A DNA stretch of 62,616 bases from Bacteroidota bacterium (lineage in GTDB: Bacteria; Bacteroidota; Ignavibacteria; UBA10030): the NCBI GenBank assembly GCA_026416125.1, contig JAOAFT010000013.1, positions 1 through 62,616 on the forward strand, written 5' to 3'. A program made the position numbers and the translations under genes. Below are positions 12,166 to 24,054 of this stretch, piece by piece. Position 1 is the stretch's first letter. Each line of letters starts with the position of its first letter. The notes under the pieces are model-generated. The model did not search any database, was not told the origin of the DNA, and worked only from the letters and a program-made list of their open reading frames with translations.

Positions 12166-15100
12166 TCATTGTGAGGGTCGTCGCTTGCCTAAAGCAAGCT
12201 GCACTTTGTTGAGTAACTCTTGTGGCTTATATGGTTTCTGAAGAAACACTTCAACATTGAGCTTCTTTAACTCTTCTCGTTTTTCTTGCTCGAAGTACCC
12301 GCTCCCAACAATAGTAAGGAGTGATGGTTTTTTCTGGAGTAAACGGCGAATGAGCTCAGCACCATCTATTTTTGGCAAGCCAAGATCTGTGAGTATGAGA
12401 TCAATTGATTCTTTGTTTTGGTCAAACACGGTAAAAGCTTCGTCCGCGTCGCGAGCAACTAGTACTGTATAGCCAGCCGATTCAAGAATTGAGGAAGTAA
12501 TATCGCGGAGTGCATCTTCATCTTCGATGAGAAGAATAGTACCGCTTCCTCCAATTTCTGTAGTCGATTCTTCATGAGTGAATGATTCGAAATCAATAAC
12601 AGTTGAGGCAGGCAGGTAGAGTGTGAAGGTTGTTCCCCTTCCAACAGTACTTTCTACATCAATGAATCCTTGATGGCTTGTGACAATACCGTAGACGACA
12701 GCAAGCCCAAGACCAGTTCCACGCCCCTTTTCTTTCGTTGTAAAAAAAGGTTCGAAAATGTTTTTTAAGTGTTCTTCTGGAATACCACATCCTGTGTCAG
12801 CGATTGTGATACTTACATACTGTTCTGCGGTGGCAGTTGGGTATTTTGCTCGAAGTGTGGCTCCATCGACAACTCCTGTCTTGAATATAAGTGAGCCACC
12901 TTGTGGCATTGCATCCTTGGCATTGACAGCAAGGTTCAGAAAGGCTTGTTGGAGTTGTGTTTGATCTGCTATCACTGTTGGTAGATTATGGGCAAGATTT
13001 AATTGTATGTCGATTGTTCGCGGAAATGTTTCAAAGATCATCTGGTAAAATTCACTCAACACGGTGTTGACATTGATGGAAGCCATTGTGAGTTCTGTTT
13101 GACGGGCAAATGTCAATATTTGCCGAACGAGAGATGCTCCCCGTTCAACTGCTTTTCGAATGATCTCAAAATCCTTATGTGAAATTCTCTGTTGTGCAGA
13201 CGTTTGTTCTAGCCGTGCTGTGTATGCTAAGATTATTCCGAGAATGTTATTGAAATCGTGCGCTATACCAGAAGCAAGTACACCAATACTTTCAAGTTTT
13301 TGTTTTTGAATGACTTGTTGCTCAAGCTCGTGTCTTCGGGTATCATCGAAGACATAGCCAATGATTTCATTCAACGAGCCGTGTTCATCAACTTTCCCAA
13401 CAATATTCAGCACTGCATACACCTTTCCTCCATCAACTCGTTTCATCTCAACTTCATAGTACTCTAAGCGTTTATACTGATGCAAGAGTGAAAGGAGCTG
13501 AGGCCAACGTTCAGGAGAAGTAAAGAGTGAGAGAAGAGAGGTATTTTGAATTTCAGCAGGTGATTTGAATCCAAAAATTCTCAGGAATGATTGATTGAAT
13601 GTTAGAATTTTGCCACTCGGTGTTGCTGTGAAATCACCAGTAAGATCATTATCAACAAATTCTTTGTAGCGGGCTTCGCTCTGTTTAAGGGCATCTTCGA
13701 CAATTTTTCGTTGTGTAATATCATGACCAATTCCCACGAGTCCTATAACTTTTCCACTTGAATCCCTGAGTGGTACTTTCGATGTTAAGAGGTAACCGTT
13801 ACTCCCATCGGCAAATCGAATTCGTTCTTCTCTGTTGAGAATTGGGTTACCTGTTTCAATTACATACCGATCGTCCCTGTAAAAACTTTCCGCAATGTCT
13901 GGCGGGAATAATGCAAAATCATCTTTTCCAATCACATCGGCTTCGGAGGTGGCCCCAATATTTCGAACATCAACGGTGTTTGCAAGAATTTTTCGACATG
14001 AGGTATCTTTTGCATAGATAGCATCTGGAAGGTTGTTTATTATTGTACGGAGTAAGTTTCGTTCAAGGGCAAGAGCTTCTTCTGCCTGTTTTCGAGTTGT
14101 AATATCGGTAATAAACCCTTCGAGAAACAAGAGTGTCCCACCAGCATCGTATACACCGCGGCCACGTTCCCAAACCCAGCGGAGTTCGCCATGTTTTGTG
14201 ATGATTGGATACTCGTACTCAAATATTTCACGACTAGGTAACTTTTGTTGCCAAAGGTTCCAGAGCAATTCTCGGTAGTCTGGGTGAATGATGTCATTGA
14301 AGGCAATTGTAGCATTATTGATAAAATCTTCCGGTTCATAGCCAGTAATATCCTTACAACCGTCACTTATGAACATCATTGTCCAGTCCTTATCGTTTGC
14401 ACACCGATATGCAAACCCTGGAATATTGCTCAGGAGCGTCGCTAACGTACGCTCTCGTTCGTAAAGAGCTTCTTCAGCGAGCTTGCGTTCTGTGATATCG
14501 ATGGCAGTCCCCATACCAGCAGGTGCGCCAAACCAGTCAATTTTTCCTGCTGTAAAATCTATCCATAGAGTTGTACCATCCTTCCGAATGAGCTTCATTT
14601 CATATCGTTCTGGTACTTTCTCACCACGTTGACGTGCGAAGCCACGTTCGCGTACCATATCGCGGTGATCGGGGTGAACAATGTCCCAAAAATTCATCGA
14701 GAGAAGCTCTTCGTACGAATATCCGAGCATGCGGCAGGTTGTTTTGTTAACGTAAACAAACCGCTTCCCTTGGTAAATGACAATTGCTGTTGAGGTTGTA
14801 TCCGCAAGACGTCGAAACCACTCTTCACTTTCTTTTAACTCTTGTTCAATTCGTTTTCGATCGGTGATATCTCGGGCAATCCAAAGCACAGTATCGCGCT
14901 GATATGGTAAGATTGTAGCATTAAACCAGGTATCTCGGTTGTTAATTGTGAGTTTGTAGTCGAGAGTAACCTGTTTTTGGCTACGGATGCATGTTGCAAG
15001 TGCACCCATGAAAACCGATGCTTGTTCGGAGGGGAATACTTCTTCGAGAGTTTTGCCTAATAGATCGTCAGCAGGGCGGTAGAGAAGCTGAGGGTTTGTA

Positions 15101-16950
15101 GGAAGTATTTCTCTGTAGCGACCGTTTTTATCGAGCACGAGAATAACATCTGGTAGTACTGAAAATATGGAACGGAGTTTCTGTTCTGAACGTTCTACCA
15201 AAAGTTCAGCTTGACGTTGTTCTGTGATGTCATCAATTGAAACAAGTATAAGTTGTTCGTGTGTGGTTTCACGGTAGAAAGGTCGTATGTGGCAATCAAG
15301 AATGCGAGTTACTCCGTCAGGGAGAGAAAGGTCGATGCGGACATTTTCTTTTGTACGTTTTTGAAGAGCTGTTTCTATAGCTATTCGCAATGGTTGAGTG
15401 TTCCAAAGTCCATTCAGGAGTGTAAAAAAGTGAGTTCCAACAATTGTATCTTTCGTAACACTAAATGTTGAACAAAACGCTTTATTTACCGCTATGATGG
15501 TAAAATCGTGTCGAAGTACAATTAGGGGTTCATGAAGCGTTTCGATAATTGTTTCCGCAAAGTTTTTTGCATTTTCTAATGCTCGATGAGCATTTCGTTC
15601 TTCGGTTTGATCGCGAAGAACAAAGATTACTCCAATAATTGCACCTTCCTTGTTTCTTATTGGAGCAGCACTATCGGCAACAGGAATTTCTCTTCCATCT
15701 TTTGTTACAAGAATTGTATGTGGTGCAAGTTTAATTGGTGTACCTTTCGTGAGTACGAGATTAAATATGTTTTCTACAGGGCGATGAGTTTCTTCGTTAA
15801 TGAGTTGAAACAATTCGTCATACTTTTTCCCTTGTGCAGCTTGCTCAGTCCAGCCAAGGAGTTTCTCTGCGATTGGGTTGATAAATTGTACATACCCGGT
15901 AACGTTTGTTATAATGACAGCGTCGCCAATACTATAGAGGGTAATTCGAAACTGTTCGTGGGTTTCCCAAGCATGCATAAGAATTTTTTGCTGCTGTTGA
16001 CTATAGGCAAATGATAATCCTGTTGCGATTGTAACAATGAGTAGTGCAAGTATAATGGCGAGGTTACGAGTTTCAGCTGTGAGAGCGTTGAATGCTTCAT
16101 CTTCATCAATTTTTACCACAATGTACCATGGTGTTGATCGTACTGAAGTTGTGTACGCGATCACATCGATTCCACGGTAGTCTTTTCCTGTACATATTCC
16201 CTGGTGTTTTTTTACAGCATGGGTCTCAACAATATTGGATTCTTTGAGGGAAAAACGGGTCTGTAGTATCGATGATGGATGTTCACGAGGCTCACTGATG
16301 AATTCGATAATTGTATCACGATGGCGGAGAAGAATAGTTTCGATCGATGTGAATGGGTAACCCCATTCTTGTATCAATGGATAGAGACTGTTAAAAGGGT
16401 TTTTCCTGAAAACAATAAAGAGCGTGTCCTGTGCTTTTTGAATGAACGGTGCAACAAAGTCAATAAAAACCGAGAGTGAGTCAGACGATCGGTACAAATC
16501 AGAACACGTTGCACTGCCTGTTAGAGAAGCAGTGTGGATCGTTTGGATAAGAGCTGAATCATTGGAATACGAAGAATCGAGAGCAATGAGAGCTGAGCCT
16601 GATTGAGATGTGATGAGAATGTTACTATAGTCATGTTCATCTGCAACATTTTGAAGATATTGGTGCAGTGTTGAATAATGATACTTGCTTTTTGTTCTGT
16701 TATAGATGGTGAATAGGTAGTTGAGAGTGTGATTTTTGGAAAGAACTGTGGCATCATGTACCTCATCGGTGTACCACTGTGAAATGCGATCGATTTTAAT
16801 GCGCGCAATTTGAGCTAAACGTTGTTCAGTCTCAATTTTGTATGCAATTTTTCGCAAGTGGTAGTAAAGTGACCCTGTCGTAAAAAGAATTAGTGCAAGA
16901 AGAATGAATATCCCCCAGTAAATGTTTTTATTCGTGTGGGTTTTCTTCAT
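12166..16950 (-). CDS. Seven-PAS hybrid sensor histidine kinase with receiver domain
   Basis: This 1594-residue inner-membrane kinase has a transmembrane helix at about 12-30 and an extracytoplasmic sensor that looks like a double Cache domain (about 35-290, ending in [17 protein letters not shown]). A second helix lies at about 297-316. Seven consecutive PAS/PAC units follow, about 330-455, 463-582, 591-705, 709-829, 834-960, 964-1090 and 1094-1210, each ending near a DIT-type PAC sequence. The kinase core has the phospho-His in [10 protein letters not shown] (His1231), N-box [17 protein letters not shown] and [10 protein letters not shown]. The C-terminal receiver has Asp1522 (TDLGLP) and Lys1572 (QKPY). 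All catalytic residues are intact. There is no output domain, so a separate HPt or response regulator is needed. The second hybrid kinase in this window has a closely similar kinase-receiver half. Confidence 0.93.
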
Positions 16951-17246: not shown

Positions 17247-19637
17247 ATGAAAACAATTTGTTTTATTGTTTTGACCTTTTGCTTATGTGATCTTCTCGTG
17301 GGGCAATATAGAGTGCAAATTGAGCCTTTAGGGGGAGTTGAATTTTCAGGGACATCATTTGTTTCTTCTTTGCATATACCTCAAGAAAATTTAATAGCAT
17401 GTCTTACAACGAATACTACGCTTAAACTAGTAAAAATTGCTCCCCTTCAAGAGTTTGCTACATCTCCAATTCTTGTGGAAAAAGAAAATATTGTATGTGC
17501 TGCAGCAATCAGGAACTCTTTATTCTATGGTTGTAACACTGGAACAGTTCTTCACGTACATGCTTCGACACTAGAAAGAAAACGCTATGGATTACCTGGA
17601 ACGGTACCGATTACTGCAATTTTGCCAATCGATGAAAATTATCTTCTCCTTGCACAACAAAATCGACAGGTAGCGTACTTTAATAGAAGTATTCAGGATG
17701 GTTTTAAGGTGATACACGAACTACCAACCGTCGTAACAACTTTGGCAGCACACCCTGCACGAAAGTACGTTGTTGCTGGAACTCAGTCCGGTGAACTTTA
17801 CGTGTTGTCTATGGGGCAATTTAAAATTCTTCAAATCATTCAATTTCAGAGGGGTGAAATAACAACACTGTGTTTCTCCAATGATGGAAAATATTTAGTG
17901 GCAGGAACAAGTACCGGGAGTATTGGTGTATGGGACGGAGAACTGACCACGCAGCATGCAACGATATTAGAATGTGGACTATCAGCTATTAAAAATGTGG
18001 CATTTGACCCAACAAATACATTTCTCATCGGAACATGTCAGAATGACCAGGCGATAGTGTACACACTTACCCAACCTGCATTATCCACAACCATTAAACA
18101 CAGCAAGGGTTCTATTATTGGATGGTACTTTGTTGGTGAAGAAACTATTGTATCTGTTTCTTCGCATGGTGAAGTGGTACAATGGAAATATGTATTCACT
18201 CCACAGGATACAATAGCTCCGACACTGGTCTTCGATACTGTTGTTGATTCTTCACGCACCCCAATTAAGTATTATGGTTCTCACTATACACTTAGTGGGC
18301 TTGTTTATGATAATACAGAAACAATAAAACTCACGGTCAATGGGCGTGAAGTGCCGTTGAAAGATATAGTTGGTGATAAACGTTCAATTCCAGAGGGTAT
18401 GGTAGCGAAACGTTTTGTTGTTACTGTGAGCCCAGACTCGAGCGAATGGAGTAGTTATACATTTGAGTGCACTGATGCTGCGGGAAACTCAACGACGGCG
18501 CGAGTAACTATTCAATGGCTTTCACGAGAGAACGCAATTGAAATTGTAAGCCCAGCCCCAGATGCTGAAACAGATCTGATCTCGGTTCCACTTCATTTCA
18601 AAGCATGGTTCGATATAAGTACATATTCAATTTCAGTGAATATGAATGATGTTGTACTTGATCAGGAACCAGGCTTTGAAGTTGTGAATAATGAGATACG
18701 TGAAACGATTCCATTACTTGTAGGGTATAACCAAATACGGCTTACAGTCAAGAGCAAAGCAGGTGAAATTTTTTCGAGTGTGTTAGGAATAACACGGCGA
18801 GCGGGGTATTCGCAACCATTATCAAGTGGTGAGAGAAAGCCTCGATCAAAGGAATCAGGTCCGCAGCGGTGGGCAGTTGTTGTTGGTGTTTCGGAGTATC
18901 AAAATTCAGCAATCCCAAGTTTAAAGTACGCTGATAAAGATGCAGAAGCGTTTGCAAACTTTCTCAGACGTCCGCAGGGTGGTGGATTTGATTCTGAACA
19001 CATGCGTGTTCTATTAAATAAAGATGCTACACTTTCAAATATTAAGGATGCTCTCATCAATTTCCTTTCGCAAGCAATAGATATCGATTTAGTCATTATT
19101 TACTTTGCAGGGCATGGTGCTCCTGAACCCGGTCGGCCACAGAATATGTACCTTTTGACGTACGATACAGATCCGCGTGCACTTGGTACAACAGCATTCC
19201 CGATGTGGGATATTCAAACTGTTCTCGCACGGTACATTACAGCGAAGCGAGTTGTGGTATTTACTGATGCTTGCCACAGTGGTGGTATCAGTGTTGAGTT
19301 CGCGACGCGGGGTCTTGGAATAACTCAAACAAACTTAATTAATCAGTACTTGGCAGATTTAGCAAAGTCGAAGGAAGGAGTTGTTGTTTTTACCGCGAGT
19401 GCAGCAGGAGAAGTGTCACAAGAGTACCCTGAGTACGGACATGGAGTGTTCACATACTTTTTACTCCAAGGGCTTGAAGGAAAAGCAGATTACAATAACG
19501 ACTATACTGTTACAATCAACGAGTTGATGCAGTATGTAGAAGAACAAGTGAAACGGAAAACGCGTGGCGCACAGAATCCAACACGGAGCCAAACTCAGTA
19601 TGATAAAGATCTAACAATGTCAATCATTCCACATTAA
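17247..19637 (+). CDS. Exported beta-propeller protein with C-terminal caspase (peptidase C14) domain
   Basis: The chosen ATG at 17247 follows GAGGGG and gives a clean Sec signal peptide (about 1-19, MKTICFIVLTFCLCDLLVGQ); an upstream in-frame TTG is less likely. The mature part has a WD40-like propeller (about 25-320). Its repeats include GEITTLCFSNDGKYLVAGT and an IGVWDG blade end. Two Ig-like segments follow (about 325-425 and 430-515). A caspase-like protease domain fills about 540-796, with the catalytic His in YFAGHGA (about His623) and Cys in TDACHSGG (about Cys676). Both catalytic residues are intact. Location is probably periplasmic or surface. It is the first gene of a tight run with a DUF4384 protein and a CHASE2 cyclase. 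Confidence 0.9.
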   Translation: MKTICFIVLTFCLCDLLVGQYRVQIEPLGGVEFSGTSFVSSLHIPQENLIACLTTNTTLKLVKIAPLQEFATSPILVEKENIVCAAAIRNSLFYGCNTGTVLHVHASTLERKRYGLPGTVPITAILPIDENYLLLAQQNRQVAYFNRSIQDGFKVIHELPTVVTTLAAHPARKYVVAGTQSGELYVLSMGQFKILQIIQFQRGEITTLCFSNDGKYLVAGTSTGSIGVWDGELTTQHATILECGLSAIKNVAFDPTNTFLIGTCQNDQAIVYTLTQPALSTTIKHSKGSIIGWYFVGEETIVSVSSHGEVVQWKYVFTPQDTIAPTLVFDTVVDSSRTPIKYYGSHYTLSGLVYDNTETIKLTVNGREVPLKDIVGDKRSIPEGMVAKRFVVTVSPDSSEWSSYTFECTDAAGNSTTARVTIQWLSRENAIEIVSPAPDAETDLISVPLHFKAWFDISTYSISVNMNDVVLDQEPGFEVVNNEIRETIPLLVGYNQIRLTVKSKAGEIFSSVLGITRRAGYSQPLSSGERKPRSKESGPQRWAVVVGVSEYQNSAIPSLKYADKDAEAFANFLRRPQGGGFDSEHMRVLLNKDATLSNIKDALINFLSQAIDIDLVIIYFAGHGAPEPGRPQNMYLLTYDTDPRALGTTAFPMWDIQTVLARYITAKRVVVFTDACHSGGISVEFATRGLGITQTNLINQYLADLAKSKEGVVVFTASAAGEVSQEYPEYGHGVFTYFLLQGLEGKADYNNDYTVTINELMQYVEEQVKRKTRGAQNPTRSQTQYDKDLTMSIIPH

Positions 19638-19657
19638 CAATATGAAAGGGTCAACCT

Positions 19658-20347
19658 ATGGGCGTATACCGTATTCTGGTTATTATGATTGGTATTCTCT
19701 GGGTTGGTGTAATGCAACTGTGGTCTCAAACAACTGATCAACAAGAACCAACACCAAACATAAACTTCGACTGGGCATTTGGCGCGTTAGTGGGACAAGA
19801 AAAAAGCTTTGTTACAATCACACGTGATACTGTTCTAAAGAGTGGAGATGAGCTCAAGATGATGGTAAGACTCCAGAGTGAATGCTACGTATATGTTGTT
19901 TTCTATGGATCAAAGGGAGAAGTTGAGTTGCTCTTTCCATACTCACTACAGCAGTTTCAAAAAGACTATACAATCGGGAAAAATTATTACATTCCGCAGG
20001 GACGAATGTGGATGAAACTTGATCAAAACACAGGGAAAGAACGCTTCTTTATCGTTGCATCGAGTGAACGTCTTCTCAAGCTTGAAGCACTCCTCTCAGA
20101 ATACTTTGCAAGCAAGGGAGAAGCCACAAAAAAAGAAAAGGGAGAACGAGTTATTGCTGAGATACGTGAGCTGCGAAAGAGTTTTGCATCCTATGCGACA
20201 ATTGCTGAAAAACCAATTACCATCGGAGGGAATATTCGAAGCACCAGTACAGTTGAAGATCGTCGAAGAATTGACCTCGCTGATTTTGCAATAGCTATAC
20301 GTGCGAAAAATTTTTACAGTAAGACATTTACCATTGACCACCAGTAG
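19658..20347 (+). CDS. DUF4384-type exported protein
   Basis: This 229-residue protein has a signal peptide (about 1-24, ending LWSQ) and one DUF4384-like domain (about 45-140). The domain shows the pattern LKSGDELKMMVRLQSECYVY, then LLFPYS and a YYIP element. A helical tail rich in Lys and Glu follows. DUF4384 domains are often found fused to or beside bacterial caspases and serine/threonine kinases; their biochemical role is not known to me. Here it follows the caspase gene by 20 bases and overlaps the cyclase start, which argues for a common task. Export to the periplasm is inferred from the signal peptide. Confidence 0.75.
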   Translation: MGVYRILVIMIGILWVGVMQLWSQTTDQQEPTPNINFDWAFGALVGQEKSFVTITRDTVLKSGDELKMMVRLQSECYVYVVFYGSKGEVELLFPYSLQQFQKDYTIGKNYYIPQGRMWMKLDQNTGKERFFIVASSERLLKLEALLSEYFASKGEATKKEKGERVIAEIRELRKSFASYATIAEKPITIGGNIRSTSTVEDRRRIDLADFAIAIRAKNFYSKTFTIDHQ

Positions 20348-22310
20348 TTTTCGAAACGTACGGGACACGATAATTATCATCGTGTCTGCCTTTCTCTTTG
20401 GATATACACTTGTTTGGCTTGTTCCTAGTTTGTTTGAAACGTGGAACTTACAAGCTGTTGATAAGCTTTTTCTTCTACGCTACCGCTACTTCCCAGAACG
20501 ATATCCGTACAACCACCATATCGTCCATGTGGATGAAACAGATAGTACCGTTCAAGTACTCGGAGGATCATATTTAACTCGAGAACACTACGCACGTGTT
20601 GTAAAGAATTTGGGAACTATGCAAACAGCCGCACAAGCATGGGATTACATTTTTCGAGCACCTTCTTCACCAGAAGAAGATACCCACTTCCTCCAGGCAA
20701 ATCGGGAAGCGAAGAATACCTACTATGGTCTAGCCTTTGGGTTACGGAAACGACAACTGAAGAATGAAGCGCCGCGACCTCGTGCACATCGGGAGTATTT
20801 GCAGACAACAAAGTGGTACATTAATGTTGAAGGTGACACGAGTGAATTGTACGTCGGTGTCAATCCAATTATAACATTTCCTGAACTTGCTCACTCAGCT
20901 CGAGGTTTGGGTTTTTTGAGCTTACACATTGATCAAGATGGTGTATTTCGCCGTGCCCCGCTTCTTGTACGTTATGAAGATGGGTTTTATCCAAGCTTAC
21001 CCTTTCGGGTGGTTTGTGACTATCTCCACGTTCAGCCGTCTGATATTCTGCTTAAACCAGGGAAGTATGTTATATTGCGCAATGCAAGAAAACCGAACGA
21101 ACCACCGCGCGACATTGTCATTCCTGTCGATAAACACTGTAATCTTCTGATCAATTTTGTTGGTCCATGGGAAGCCATGACACACTACAACATGGCTGCA
21201 ATCTACCATGCATCGGACGATCAAGACGCACTTGAGTACGATTGGACGCCACTACTGAAAGGAAAAATCGTTATCGTTTCTGTTGCTGCAACTGGTGCTG
21301 CCGATGTTGCTCCTGTCCCAACGGATAACGAATATCCTCTCAGTGGAGTGCATGCAAATGTGATTCATACAATTTTAACTGAGAACTTTCTTATTGTTCC
21401 ATCGGCTTTTGCAATGGTAGGAATCGAAGTGTTCCTGCTCTGTACAATTGGTTTCTTTGCATTACGATTCTCTTCTCGTGGATTATGGCTAGGGGCATTA
21501 TGCCTTATTGTTGTGTACGTTAGTGTGGTTATAGTTCTCTTTCTTGTAGGGAATATAATTCTCACCATCGTTCGTCCAGTTCTCATAGTTTCTGTCTCAG
21601 TTTTTGGTGTTCTTGCATACCGTTTTATTCGGGAAGAACGTGAGAAAGAAGCGTTACGCCACAGCCTTGAAGCATACCTCCCACCAACGCTCGTTAGGCG
21701 GATGATTGTTCACCCCGAAGTACTTTTCGAAGTACATAAACGTGAATTAACAATCCTCTTCAGCGACATAAAAAGTTTTTCTACTTACTCAGCTCCAATG
21801 GATCCAGACACTATTCAGCAATTTTTGAGTGAATACTTCAATGCAATGGTTGATATCGTGTTCCAGTATGAAGGGACCGTTGATAAGTACATTGGTGATG
21901 GTTTGATGGTTTTCTTTGGTGCGCCTGAATATCAACCCGATCATGCAGTTCGATGTGTGAAAGCAGCAATTGCAATGCAGAAGAAATGCAGGGAATTGAA
22001 GGGACAATGGATTGAGCGAGGGTTGTTTCCACTCCAAATACGTATTGGCATTAATACTGGTACTGTGGTCGTTGGAAACTTTGGTACTCCCAAAAAGCTT
22101 TCGTACACTGTACTTGGTTCTGATGTGAACCTCGCAAACAGACTCGAGTCAAATGCCCCTGTTGAGGGAATTATGATTTCACGTCGAACGTATGAATTAG
22201 TAAAAGATGTTATCCCCGCGTTGCCTCACGAACCAATCAAAGCAAAAGGATTCGATACACCTGTTGAAGTGTACATAATACCCGTCGATGATATTGATGT
22301 AAACTTATAG
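20301..22310 (+). CDS. CHASE2-domain class III adenylate/guanylate cyclase
   Basis: This 669-residue membrane protein has one N-terminal transmembrane helix (about 22-42) and an extracytoplasmic CHASE2 sensor (about 45-360). Three transmembrane helices follow (about 370-440), then a cytoplasmic class III cyclase domain (about 480-660). The metal-binding aspartates are present in LFSDIKSF (Asp489) and KYIGDGLMVFFG (Asp533), as are the transition-state Asn and Arg in VNLANRLES (Asn610, Arg614). It should be catalytically competent; whether ATP or GTP is used cannot be told. The GTG start at 20301 overlaps the DUF4384 gene by 47 bases; a TTG at 20334 is an alternative. The natural reading is that the CHASE2 domain senses something in the periplasm, where the caspase and DUF4384 proteins reside. 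Confidence 0.9.
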   Translation: MRKIFTVRHLPLTTSSFRNVRDTIIIIVSAFLFGYTLVWLVPSLFETWNLQAVDKLFLLRYRYFPERYPYNHHIVHVDETDSTVQVLGGSYLTREHYARVVKNLGTMQTAAQAWDYIFRAPSSPEEDTHFLQANREAKNTYYGLAFGLRKRQLKNEAPRPRAHREYLQTTKWYINVEGDTSELYVGVNPIITFPELAHSARGLGFLSLHIDQDGVFRRAPLLVRYEDGFYPSLPFRVVCDYLHVQPSDILLKPGKYVILRNARKPNEPPRDIVIPVDKHCNLLINFVGPWEAMTHYNMAAIYHASDDQDALEYDWTPLLKGKIVIVSVAATGAADVAPVPTDNEYPLSGVHANVIHTILTENFLIVPSAFAMVGIEVFLLCTIGFFALRFSSRGLWLGALCLIVVYVSVVIVLFLVGNIILTIVRPVLIVSVSVFGVLAYRFIREEREKEALRHSLEAYLPPTLVRRMIVHPEVLFEVHKRELTILFSDIKSFSTYSAPMDPDTIQQFLSEYFNAMVDIVFQYEGTVDKYIGDGLMVFFGAPEYQPDHAVRCVKAAIAMQKKCRELKGQWIERGLFPLQIRIGINTGTVVVGNFGTPKKLSYTVLGSDVNLANRLESNAPVEGIMISRRTYELVKDVIPALPHEPIKAKGFDTPVEVYIIPVDDIDVNL

Positions 22311-22318
22311 TAGTTCCA

Positions 22319-23173
22319 ATGATTTATACAACAGTAGAAGCGTTCGATTTCTGTCAACGCCTAGCGCGGAAGCATTACGAGAATTTCCCGGTTGCTTCAA
22401 TGCTTCTCCCGCGCAACATTCGGAAGCACGTTGCAGCAATTTATGCTTTTGCCCGCATAGCAGATGACAGTGCTGACGAAGGGACATACACGCCAGAAGA
22501 GCGGCTTTCCAAACTGGATGAATGGGAACGTCAATTACACGACTGTTATAGAGGGGTAGCATCGCACCCTGTTTTCATTGCCTTACGCGAGACGGTATCA
22601 CAGTTTGCTCTACCGATAGAATACTTCATGCAGCTCCTTACAGCGTTCCGTACAGATGTATGTACTAATAGGTATGGGACATGGAATGAAGTCTTAGAGT
22701 ACTGCAAAAACTCGGCGAATCCTGTTGGTAGGATTATGCTCCATCTCTTTGGATATACCGATCCTGAACGCACTATGCTCTCCGATGCAATTTGCACAGG
22801 ATTGCAGCTGACGAACTTTTGGCAAGATCTCTCTGTTGATGTCAAAAAGAATCGACTGTACGTTCCATTGGAAGAATGTCAACGGTACAATTGCTCAGCA
22901 GAAGATTTTCTATCGCTTCAGTTTTCACCCAACGTTTCAAAAGTTGTTAAGGAAATGGTTGACCGTACCGAGCAATTTTTTCAGCGAGGTACGAAGTTAG
23001 TATCTATTGTACGGTTTCCATTGAACTATGAATTAAAACTTACACTTCTTGGTGGTTCGGAAATTCTGGCACTCATACGGAAGCAACAGTATAATACATT
23101 TGTAAAACGTCCAGCACTTGGGGTTAAATCCGGTGTCGCTCTTCTTTTTCGTAGTTTTTTCATTAAATTATAG
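22319..23173 (+). CDS. hpnC: Squalene-pathway synthase HpnC
   Basis: This trans-isoprenyl diphosphate synthase of the squalene/phytoene family has 284 residues. The first Asp-rich motif is ADDSADE (about 48-54) and the second is in QLTNFWQDLSVDV (about 163-175). The block SANPVGRIMLHLFG is characteristic of HpnC. In the known three-enzyme route HpnD makes presqualene diphosphate, HpnC converts it to hydroxysqualene and HpnE reduces this to squalene. It starts eight bases after the cyclase stop and ends two bases before the next gene, hpnD, so it belongs to the same gene run. No hpnE is in the window. A carotenoid role cannot be fully excluded. Confidence 0.85.
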   Translation: MIYTTVEAFDFCQRLARKHYENFPVASMLLPRNIRKHVAAIYAFARIADDSADEGTYTPEERLSKLDEWERQLHDCYRGVASHPVFIALRETVSQFALPIEYFMQLLTAFRTDVCTNRYGTWNEVLEYCKNSANPVGRIMLHLFGYTDPERTMLSDAICTGLQLTNFWQDLSVDVKKNRLYVPLEECQRYNCSAEDFLSLQFSPNVSKVVKEMVDRTEQFFQRGTKLVSIVRFPLNYELKLTLLGGSEILALIRKQQYNTFVKRPALGVKSGVALLFRSFFIKL

Positions 23174-23175
23174 CT

Positions 23176-24054
23176 GTGAATATTCAAGCTCTTACTACAT
23201 ATGAGCAAAACAAGAAAAGTAATTTTTACTTTTCTTTTCTGAGCTTACCGAAAGCGAAGCGCCATGCTATTGAAACAATTTACGCTTTTTGCAGGGTAAC
23301 TGACGATATTGTCGATGAAGGGGAAAATGAAGAGGAAAAACATGTTCTCCTTTTGCAGTGGACTGATGAGTTAAAACGGTCACTCTATGGAGTTTCACAC
23401 TACGCCCTTCTCAATCGACTTGCCTCGATTATTCACCGCTTCAACATCCCAATAGAGTTATTCTATGAATTGATAAAAGGTATGGAAATGGATTTAACCC
23501 AAAAACGTTACGGGACGTTTGGGGAACTCGAGCTATATTGTTACCGTGTTGCTTCAACTGTTGGTCTTATTTGTGCTGAGGTATTTGGGTACCACCATGA
23601 ATCAACAAAACAGTATGCAAGTAATCTCGGTATAGCTCTTCAACTCACGAACATTTTGCGTGATATTAAAGATGATGCTCGACGTGGGCGCATTTATCTT
23701 CCACAGGAAGATCTACAACAATTTGGATATACAGAAGAAGAATTACTCAACGCTGTTTACAATGATCGATTTATTGCATTGATGAAGTTCGAGTGTGCAC
23801 GAGCGCGTTCATACTACTACAAAGCGAAACAGTATCTTGCTGAAGACGATAAACCTTTATTTACAGCAGCTCGCATCATGGGGAACATTTACTACCTTCT
23901 CCTGAAGCAGATTGAGCGACGGAACTACGATGTGTTTTCGAAAAAGATAGGTATAGCATCTGTCTATAAAATTTTTATAGCAACCCTTCTTCAGCTTCGG
24001 AAAAACATCCCCTTAAATGTTCATCGCTTCATTCGGAAAGAATTGCCTGCGTAG
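23176..24054 (+). CDS. hpnD: Presqualene diphosphate synthase HpnD
   Basis: HpnD condenses two farnesyl diphosphates to presqualene diphosphate, the entry step for hopanoids. The 292-residue protein has the family opening FYFSFLSLPKAKRHAIETIY, the first Asp-rich motif TDDIVDE (about 42-48), YCYRVASTVGL (typical of HpnD) and the second motif in QLTNILRDIKDDARRGR. It starts with GTG two bases after hpnC. It ends convergently, six bases from acpS on the other strand, with no visible terminator. Confidence 0.88.
   Translation: MNIQALTTYEQNKKSNFYFSFLSLPKAKRHAIETIYAFCRVTDDIVDEGENEEEKHVLLLQWTDELKRSLYGVSHYALLNRLASIIHRFNIPIELFYELIKGMEMDLTQKRYGTFGELELYCYRVASTVGLICAEVFGYHHESTKQYASNLGIALQLTNILRDIKDDARRGRIYLPQEDLQQFGYTEEELLNAVYNDRFIALMKFECARARSYYYKAKQYLAEDDKPLFTAARIMGNIYYLLLKQIERRNYDVFSKKIGIASVYKIFIATLLQLRKNIPLNVHRFIRKELPA

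Follow-up and report, generated by a model that had tools for sequence, protein, structure and literature searches.

We analysed a window of 62,616 nucleotides from a Bacteroidota bacterium of the Ignavibacteria (GenBank assembly GCA_026416125.1, contig JAOAFT010000013.1) and focused on a train of five + strand genes encoding a propeller-caspase, a DUF4384 protein, a CHASE2-adenylyl cyclase and the squalene-pathway enzymes HpnC and HpnD. Their open reading frames (ORFs) lie at 17247-19637, 19658-20347, 20301-22310, 22319-23173 and 23176-24054, separated by 20, -47, 8 and 2 bases. An original prediction, made from the nucleotide letters, had described five genes with these gaps, and both the places and the gaps are as it gave them.

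The first gene (17247..19637, +) encodes a protein of 796 amino acids that, from Pfam, alignment, hydropathy and a predicted model, has a signal-like N-terminus, a WD40-type beta-propeller, a beta-rich region and a C-terminal Peptidase_C14 domain (residues 541-788; 18867..19610). Peptidase_C14 (PF00656) scores 82.6 bits against a cut-off of 21.4, with additional WD40-type propeller matches, and the catalytic dyad of H623 (19113-19115) and C676 (19272-19274) is invariant in 25/25 aligned rows, that of the window included. The profile for EACC1-associated caspases (NF047832) gave 119.6 bits, below its curated cut-off of 140, and the sole match of the caspase domain to PDB sequences was Metacaspase-4 (E 0.0008). 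The predicted model comprises the propeller, the beta-rich part and the caspase part, with a mean predicted local distance difference test (pLDDT) score of 78 and a predicted TM-score of 0.45. As a clue to the caspase domain this model was set aside, the TM-score being 0.45 and all 50 Foldseek matches listed being propeller proteins, which added nothing new.

The second gene (19658..20347, +) encodes a protein of 229 amino acids that matches a single Pfam family, DUF4384 (PF14326; 58.3 bits against a gathering threshold of 27), and is modelled as a beta-sandwich plus a signal-like helix (mean pLDDT 82). No fold family was inferred from the model, as the best Foldseek match had an E-value of 0.014 and there was no confident PDB match; in VIA-align the best Z of 6.6, to the Ig-like domain of the Pycsar cyclase EcPycC, was tied with filamin and others, and again no family was inferred. 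Neither a FecR nor a LysM domain was found in this one-family protein or among the 25 of 26 Pfam families listed for the caspase protein. Residues 183-194 of the DUF4384 protein (20204..20239, +) form a peptide, AEKPITIGGNIR, that is conserved by alignment and lies partly in a low-confidence loop of the model. By hydropathy, the caspase and the DUF4384 protein of the window both begin with an export-signal-like stretch. A hydrophobic N-terminal stretch is present in 29/29 DUF4384 ORFs and 27/28 caspase ORFs at the loci of the order, window included; the one remaining caspase ORF is truncated where its contig ends.

The third gene encodes a membrane cyclase with CHASE2 (128.2 bits) and Guanylate_cyc (100.7 bits) domains, both above the Pfam cut-offs. 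Its start is more likely the TTG at 20334, which gives 658 amino acids (20334..22310, +) and an overlap of 14 bases with the DUF4384 gene, than the GTG at 20301, which gives 669 amino acids and an overlap of 47. We moved the start because an in-frame TTG or GTG stands at the same 14-base overlap in 26/29 loci; in the other three (G004, G014 and G018) the cyclase frame stops short of the overlap. Hydropathy predicts a 1+3 pattern of transmembrane segments (residues 20-38, then 363-381, 398-416 and 419-437), with the extracytoplasmic CHASE2 sensor domain (20409..21452, +) between the first and the last three. At the same threshold the 29 cyclase ORFs of relatives have four segments in 18 cases, three in eight and one in three. 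In the class III catalytic domain (21741..22277, +), residues D489, K529, D533, T603, N610 and R614 are invariant in 19/19 rows, the window's among them. The Asp pair we take to bind metal, and the Lys/Thr pair presumably sets specificity for ATP. Lys529 and Thr603 align with the Lys and Thr of CyaB (3r5g) and the adenylate cyclase 1wc0, two of this domain's closest relatives of solved structure and proteins that we take to lack CHASE2; 2w01, also near, differs at the Lys position. The product is thus probably cyclic AMP (cAMP), judging by these aligned residues, and five matches to cyclic-nucleotide-binding proteins in this genome mean that a cAMP signal could be read.

These results agree with the original prediction on a propeller-caspase with an intact His/Cys dyad, on the predicted export of the caspase and the DUF4384 protein, and on a membrane nucleotide cyclase with CHASE2 and intact catalytic residues. 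Its extent for the cyclase stood as an ORF (20301-22310) and was amended at the start codon.

Conservation of the trio in two phyla

Conservation was assessed in 80 genomes, namely this genome (G000) and 79 relatives, in which f1 and f5 denote two families of one order. A cyclase orthologue is present in 29/80 genomes, with a DUF4384 gene alongside in all 29, and the caspase-DUF4384-cyclase triplet is syntenic in 28: 21/32 in f1, 7/14 in f5 and 0/34 in other families. A cyclase fragment in G073 (42% identity, at a contig end) was left out of these counts. Caspase and cyclase orthologues share about 39-66% identity. Loss of the neighbourhood in relatives was the outcome that the original prediction had named as telling against it; what we found is a triplet order kept across two families. 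The propeller-caspase, sought at E <=1e-60, occurs in 9/395 sampled genomes of the phylum, all of them f1 or f5. At 29 named-record loci with a propeller-caspase (L191-L219) the triplet is present at 28, the exception being a lone second caspase of G003; 26 of these loci are contigs already within the 80-genome count, and so they add no evidence. The first three genes, for the exported propeller-caspase, the exported DUF4384 protein and the CHASE2-adenylyl cyclase, make up the conserved unit.

A further gene tracks the triplet in Ignavibacteria. It encodes an exported tetratricopeptide repeat (TPR) protein of about 650 amino acids with a signal-like N-terminus, TPRs at about residues 470-650 and an N-terminal half without a Pfam match, and it lies divergent from and head to head with the caspase gene in f1 and f5 (18/29 named loci; for example L131:6306-8285 and L143:10482-12446). 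In this genome the copy stands apart from the triplet, on contig C44 (89729-91708). An orthologue at E <=1e-40 is found in 27/28 triplet genomes (G014 lacks one) and in 5/52 others. With G016 counted as a triplet genome this becomes 27/29 versus 5/51 (Fisher p 4e-14), and within f5 it is 7/7 versus 0/7 (p 3e-4), both tests ignoring phylogeny. From this co-occurrence the TPR protein is likely an additional, fourth partner in Ignavibacteria.

The trio recurs outside the phylum. Among 148 genomes of the Nitrospirota, the phylum of the genome that carries locus L266 (G459), we found five caspases that align over nearly their full length (L262, L266, L299, L300 and L301), two of which, L262 and L266, were already known from the caspase-locus scan described below. 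All five keep the AGHG histidine motif and the D-T-C-[YF]-S-G cysteine motif, and all five have DUF4384 and CHASE2 genes beside them. Here the CHASE2 domain is fused to a sigma-54-activator-type AAA+ domain (4/5 by Pfam). In L299 (2467-5204) the CHASE2-activator frame, on a contig of a metagenome-assembled genome (MAG), is broken by a stop or frameshift, possibly an assembly error, and the next ORF has GAFTGA. The GAFTGA motif is present in L262 and L266; at the same position L300 (8527-11217) has GTFSGA and L301 (9183-12092) has GSFTTA, and these two domains may signal through something besides sigma-54. Read by eye, the N-termini of the Nitrospirota caspases and DUF4384 proteins show, in 10/10 cases, a lipobox-like Cys just after a hydrophobic stretch. 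The claim of the original prediction that caspase, DUF4384 protein and CHASE2-cyclase belong together is thus supported by conservation in two families and by the same extracytoplasmic trio, with a different output domain, in Nitrospirota.

The sensor domains of the trios are related. In a tree of 49 CHASE2 rows, a branch supported at 98/97 separates the triplet domains of Ignavibacteria and Nitrospirota from the 28 others, among which are those of a further CHASE2-cyclase from this genome (L318) and of five such cyclases from different f1 genomes. For this tree L285, L286 and L232 were dropped, L154 and L155 were cut to 345 residues, and the group labelled 'roku' includes one Acidobacteria MAG (L252). 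A profile of the Ignavibacteria CHASE2 domains scores the five Nitrospirota domains at 139-250 bits and other CHASE2 domains at <=89. As the tree has it, the sensor domain tracks the extracytoplasmic partners encoded beside it, and neither its output nor the genome that carries it.

The DUF4384 partners also share a peptide. Downstream of the DUF4384 domain, the strict pattern AE[RK]P[ILV]xIxGN[IV]R is matched in 28/29 Ignavibacteria partners and its core, [ED][RK]P[ILV]xIxG, in 29/29. The core is found in 5/5 Nitrospirota partners, within a proline-rich tail, and twice in L300 by pattern. Elsewhere it occurs in 1/141 window ORFs (the DUF4384 gene itself), 0/972 control ORFs, 0/563 second-module ORFs and 3/3397 ORFs of the 48 caspase loci of other groups, two of the three being the Nitrospirota partners L262 and L266. 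In the window protein the core overlaps a stretch modelled with low confidence (residues 187-201), which might fit a docking peptide. We also considered the DUF4384 protein as a caspase substrate cut after R194 (GN[IV]R), since R194 is invariant in 16 rows and lies in the low-confidence loop; this idea was dropped, as [ED][RK]PxxI is retained in the Nitrospirota partners and the Arg is not.

Caspase and CHASE2 genes are paired more widely. Our scan of caspase loci, limited to the best 80 of 133 relatives, comprised 77 loci, 48 of them from other groups and non-independent. A CHASE2 gene is present at 13 of these 48 (Rokubacteria, Acidobacteria, Gemmatimonadetes and Nitrospirae) versus 0.43 expected if CHASE2 genes are as dense as in six of the genomes concerned. 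L245 (1726-11460) and L246 (4427-11919) each carry three tandem caspase genes, which in L245 (Rokubacteria) are followed by an overlapping CHASE2-cyclase. The f1 genomes hold a second, distinct set, in which a short caspase or a long DUF4384 protein stands with an M48 peptidase and a different CHASE2-cyclase, the peptidase carrying an SH3 domain in the member tested (L154:7522-12449, L155:1388-6233, L159:3395-9056 and L160:40-8918).

Squalene genes beside the trio

The train ends with hpnC (22319..23173, +), for the squalene synthase of the HpnCDE route, and hpnD (23176..24054, +), for presqualene diphosphate synthase, both of them neighbours of the trio in family f1 only. HpnC (324 bits), HpnD (290 bits) and HpnE (431 bits) all score above curated cut-offs, in accord with the two squalene-pathway enzymes of the original prediction. 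HpnE is unlinked in this genome (contig C32) and follows hpnD in several relatives. With all three present, squalene is the expected product.

Linkage between the cyclase gene and hpnC is real within f1 and restricted to it. Where the triplet genomes of this family have both on one contig, hpnC is downstream in 18/18, within 200 bases in 15 and at 0.5, 1.2 and 4.1 kb in the others. The gap of 8 bases is peculiar to this genome, and in the other 14 genomes within 200 bases it is about 68-181 (estimated in G004 and G014). Called ORFs lie between the two genes in G012 (1.2 kb) and G002 (4 kb). Contig ends interrupt the locus in G010, G018 and G016, and the triplet genome G011 gave no match to hpnC. 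In f5 triplet genomes hpnCD is never adjacent (0/7), being on another contig in six and 49 kb away in G049, and no HpnC or HpnD match was found in the seven f5 and five Nitrospirota triplet loci examined. Among all 80 genomes hpnC is present in 76, in 28/29 with the cyclase locus (G016 included) versus 48/51 without it (Fisher p 0.54), a test with little power as the gene is near universal. The cyclase locus is missing from 10/32 f1 genomes, 9 of which still have hpnC. We conclude that hpnCD is probably a family-specific neighbour and not a core part of the module, its link to the triplet being positional; this linkage may reflect a shared operon or merely an old neighbourhood.

A hopanoid route is unsupported, because no squalene-hopene cyclase was found and the linkage to hpnCD is limited to f1. 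The C-terminal domain of that enzyme (PF13243) gave no match in this genome, which is 98.65% complete, and the B. subtilis control was found. PF13243 rises above its cut-off in 7/80 genomes, weakly, with a best score of 44 bits, and the candidates in G065, G005 and G042 reach 28-37 bits versus a cut-off of 431 (TIGR01507) and 34-45 versus 323 (TIGR01787). The hopanoid part of the original prediction is therefore not supported, and its link to squalene synthesis is weak: this genome has no squalene-hopene cyclase match, the best candidates of relatives fall far under the cut-offs, and the linkage belongs to one family. The HpnCDE squalene pathway is shared with known systems in HpnC, HpnD and the unlinked HpnE, and departs from them in the squalene-hopene cyclase, which was not found here.

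Other features of the neighbourhood were recorded. A cluster of ORFs near hpnC (c13) lies on the strand opposite to hpnC and hpnD, has no Pfam or NCBIfam match in the member tested, and was taken as a spurious antisense ORF. In the f1 relatives at L130, L132, L133, L134, L162 and L165, the genes tig-clpP-clpX (trigger factor and ClpXP) adjoin the triplet/hpnCD locus, with one member tested per cluster. The divergent neighbour in the window (12166-16950, -) encodes a hybrid histidine kinase of 1594 amino acids with several PAS domains and a receiver, which falls in no cluster of at least five members in the neighbourhood comparison. A promoter and terminator scan gave 12 promoter-like sites, against 16.8 in shuffled sequence, and 11 terminator-like sites, against 6.3 (sd 2.6), and these were not used.

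A putative envelope-signalling module

The sequences show the gene order and its conservation, the catalytic residues, the predicted topology, the shared peptide, the conserved overlap and a single CHASE2 lineage that leads to two outputs; we infer a complex with contact among its parts, a direction of signalling, a substrate, a cue and cAMP as the product. The triplet looks like a real, little-described signalling module. We think it probable that the genes at 17247-22310 form one envelope-signalling module, in which the exported caspase and DUF4384 protein join CHASE2 in a sensing complex that drives the cyclase, with the same outside parts coupled to another output in Nitrospirota. A more specific version is offered tentatively, as a proposal that could well be wrong in its details: CHASE2 would be gated by the exported propeller-caspase together with a DUF4384 protein that serves as adaptor and docks through its [ED][RK]P[ILV]xIxG peptide, the outside parts being kept while the output is exchanged between a cyclase and a sigma-54-type activator, and the TPR protein would be a fourth partner in Ignavibacteria.

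In the envelope-signalling module that we favour, the caspase, the DUF4384 protein and the periplasmic CHASE2 domain would assemble on the outward side of the inner membrane, where the DUF4384 protein would act as the adaptor and its peptide would dock to CHASE2 or the propeller of the caspase. Ca2+ activates many metacaspases. The cue might be Ca2+ or a fragment of an envelope protein, and binding or cleavage by the caspase would alter CHASE2, changing the cAMP output of the cytoplasmic class III cyclase, a signal for CRP-type proteins to read. The Nitrospirota version has these outside parts too, there with lipoprotein-like signals, and joins them to a sigma-54-activator-type ATPase.

Several observations weigh against this model. 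G016, a genome that is 69% complete, has the DUF4384-cyclase pair on a contig that shows no caspase upstream of it, and lacks a TPR partner, and G003 has an additional lone caspase copy (L161, L203). The Nitrospirota gene order, DUF4384, CHASE2, caspase, differs from that of Ignavibacteria. Nitrospirota propeller-caspases at L302-L304 have no CHASE2 and no DUF4384 gene in the 18 kb covered, and L305 and L307-L309 have DUF4384 and no CHASE2, meaning that the propeller-caspase occurs outside the trio too. The output swap is drawn from the five mutually related Nitrospirota loci, and with their variant motifs the sigma-54 contact of the L300 and L301 activators is uncertain. The CHASE2 tree carried long-branch warnings, with the Nitrospirota rows as one group unsettled (70/48), and inheritance from one ancestral DUF4384 protein would be enough to explain the shared peptide. 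Export was called from hydropathy and not by a trained predictor, and the interaction, the cleavage and the cyclase activity of the module are predictions from sequence. The GAFTGA variants, the lone propeller-caspases and the weak matches resembling squalene-hopene cyclase are contrary evidence, and the lipobox-like signals weigh the other way.

Other explanations of the locus lead to different roles for the same genes. In one, close to the original prediction, all five genes act together, and the cyclic nucleotide from the CHASE2-cyclase controls squalene or hopanoid synthesis through co-transcribed hpnCD, remodelling membrane lipids under envelope stress. The position of hpnC downstream of the cyclase in all 18 same-contig f1 genomes, within 200 bases in 15, the gap of 8 bases in this genome and the presence of HpnE, with which squalene can be made, would fit such a system. 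We nevertheless consider it unlikely, since no squalene-hopene cyclase was found in this genome and the candidates of relatives score far under the hopene-cyclase cut-off, since hpnCD is not adjacent in 7/7 f5 triplet genomes and HpnC and HpnD gave no match in the five Nitrospirota and seven f5 loci, and since hpnC is present regardless of the triplet while G011 has the triplet without an hpnC match. The 68-181 bases ahead of hpnC in relatives also leave room for a promoter, and ORFs intervene in G012 and G002.

The caspase could instead be an effector, where CHASE2 senses the envelope and its output, whether cAMP/CRP or sigma-54, induces the caspase operon, leading to degradation of envelope proteins or killing of the cell. 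The transcription-activator-type domain within the same gene train in Nitrospirota is consistent with this, as are the frequent ties of caspases to cell death in the literature, as covered in the excerpt of PMC3501461. This reading also seems rather unlikely to us, in that the extracytoplasmic set, with its CHASE2 clade and DUF4384 motif, is kept across the output swap, favouring direct contact outside the membrane, and the cyclase gene overlaps the DUF4384 gene in 26/29 f1 and f5 loci, so that both are made together. That the genes are neighbours by descent only, with unrelated functions, we regard as very improbable. The triplet is indeed confined to few lineages, and 10/32 f1 genomes lack the cyclase locus, nine of them having hpnC; however, it recurs in two phyla with different gene orders, a common CHASE2 clade and a shared motif, and CHASE2 is enriched near caspases in further phyla (the 13/48 non-independent loci from the best 80 of 133).

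The module we favour, a sensing complex of caspase, DUF4384 protein and CHASE2, has partial parallels. As given in the excerpt of PMC5192318, the Burkholderia BiofilmReg operon encodes a signal-peptide protein (FecR/LysM) beside a CHASE2 histidine kinase with a 1+3 transmembrane pattern, and in the excerpt of PMC4439547, on magnetotactic bacteria, the signal-peptide protein MtxA is encoded beside a CHASE2-cyclase. The locus resembles both, as these excerpts present them, in co-encoding an exported partner with a CHASE2 receptor, and it differs in that the partners are a propeller-caspase and a DUF4384 protein. In Trichodesmium erythraeum a metacaspase-CHASE2 fusion is described as a single membrane protein with the receptor outside and the caspase on the other side, and the excerpts of PMC3501461 and PMC2853523 do not mention a cyclase; here too a caspase goes with a CHASE2 receptor, but it is a separate, exported protein. 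EACC2-caspase proteins have fused, highly variable C-termini, including CHASE2, in TRADD-N-linked systems (PMC8195603, in excerpt). These too combine caspase with CHASE2, and the excerpt describes no DUF4384/CHASE2-cyclase trio. An excerpt of a cyanobacterial review names caspase, CHASE2 and DUF4384 together, as accessory domains. Our searches of open-licence PMC papers gave no description of a trio of separate exported propeller-caspase, DUF4384 protein and CHASE2 receptor with output exchange. What is known, then, is a CHASE2 receptor with a co-encoded exported partner, and caspase-CHASE2 fusions in cyanobacteria and EACC2 systems; what appears to be new is a separate exported propeller-caspase with a DUF4384 protein and a CHASE2 receptor whose output seems exchangeable.

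Bacterial caspases are usually discussed as proteases of cell death or conflict. If the module works as we propose, a caspase would have a signalling role outside the inner membrane, acting through a transmembrane receptor. No ligands of CHASE2 are known according to the excerpt of PMC5192318, and the domain would gain a concrete candidate protein partner. The exchange of a cyclase for a sigma-54-type activator on one CHASE2 lineage would then be a natural experiment that marks where the conserved contacts lie.

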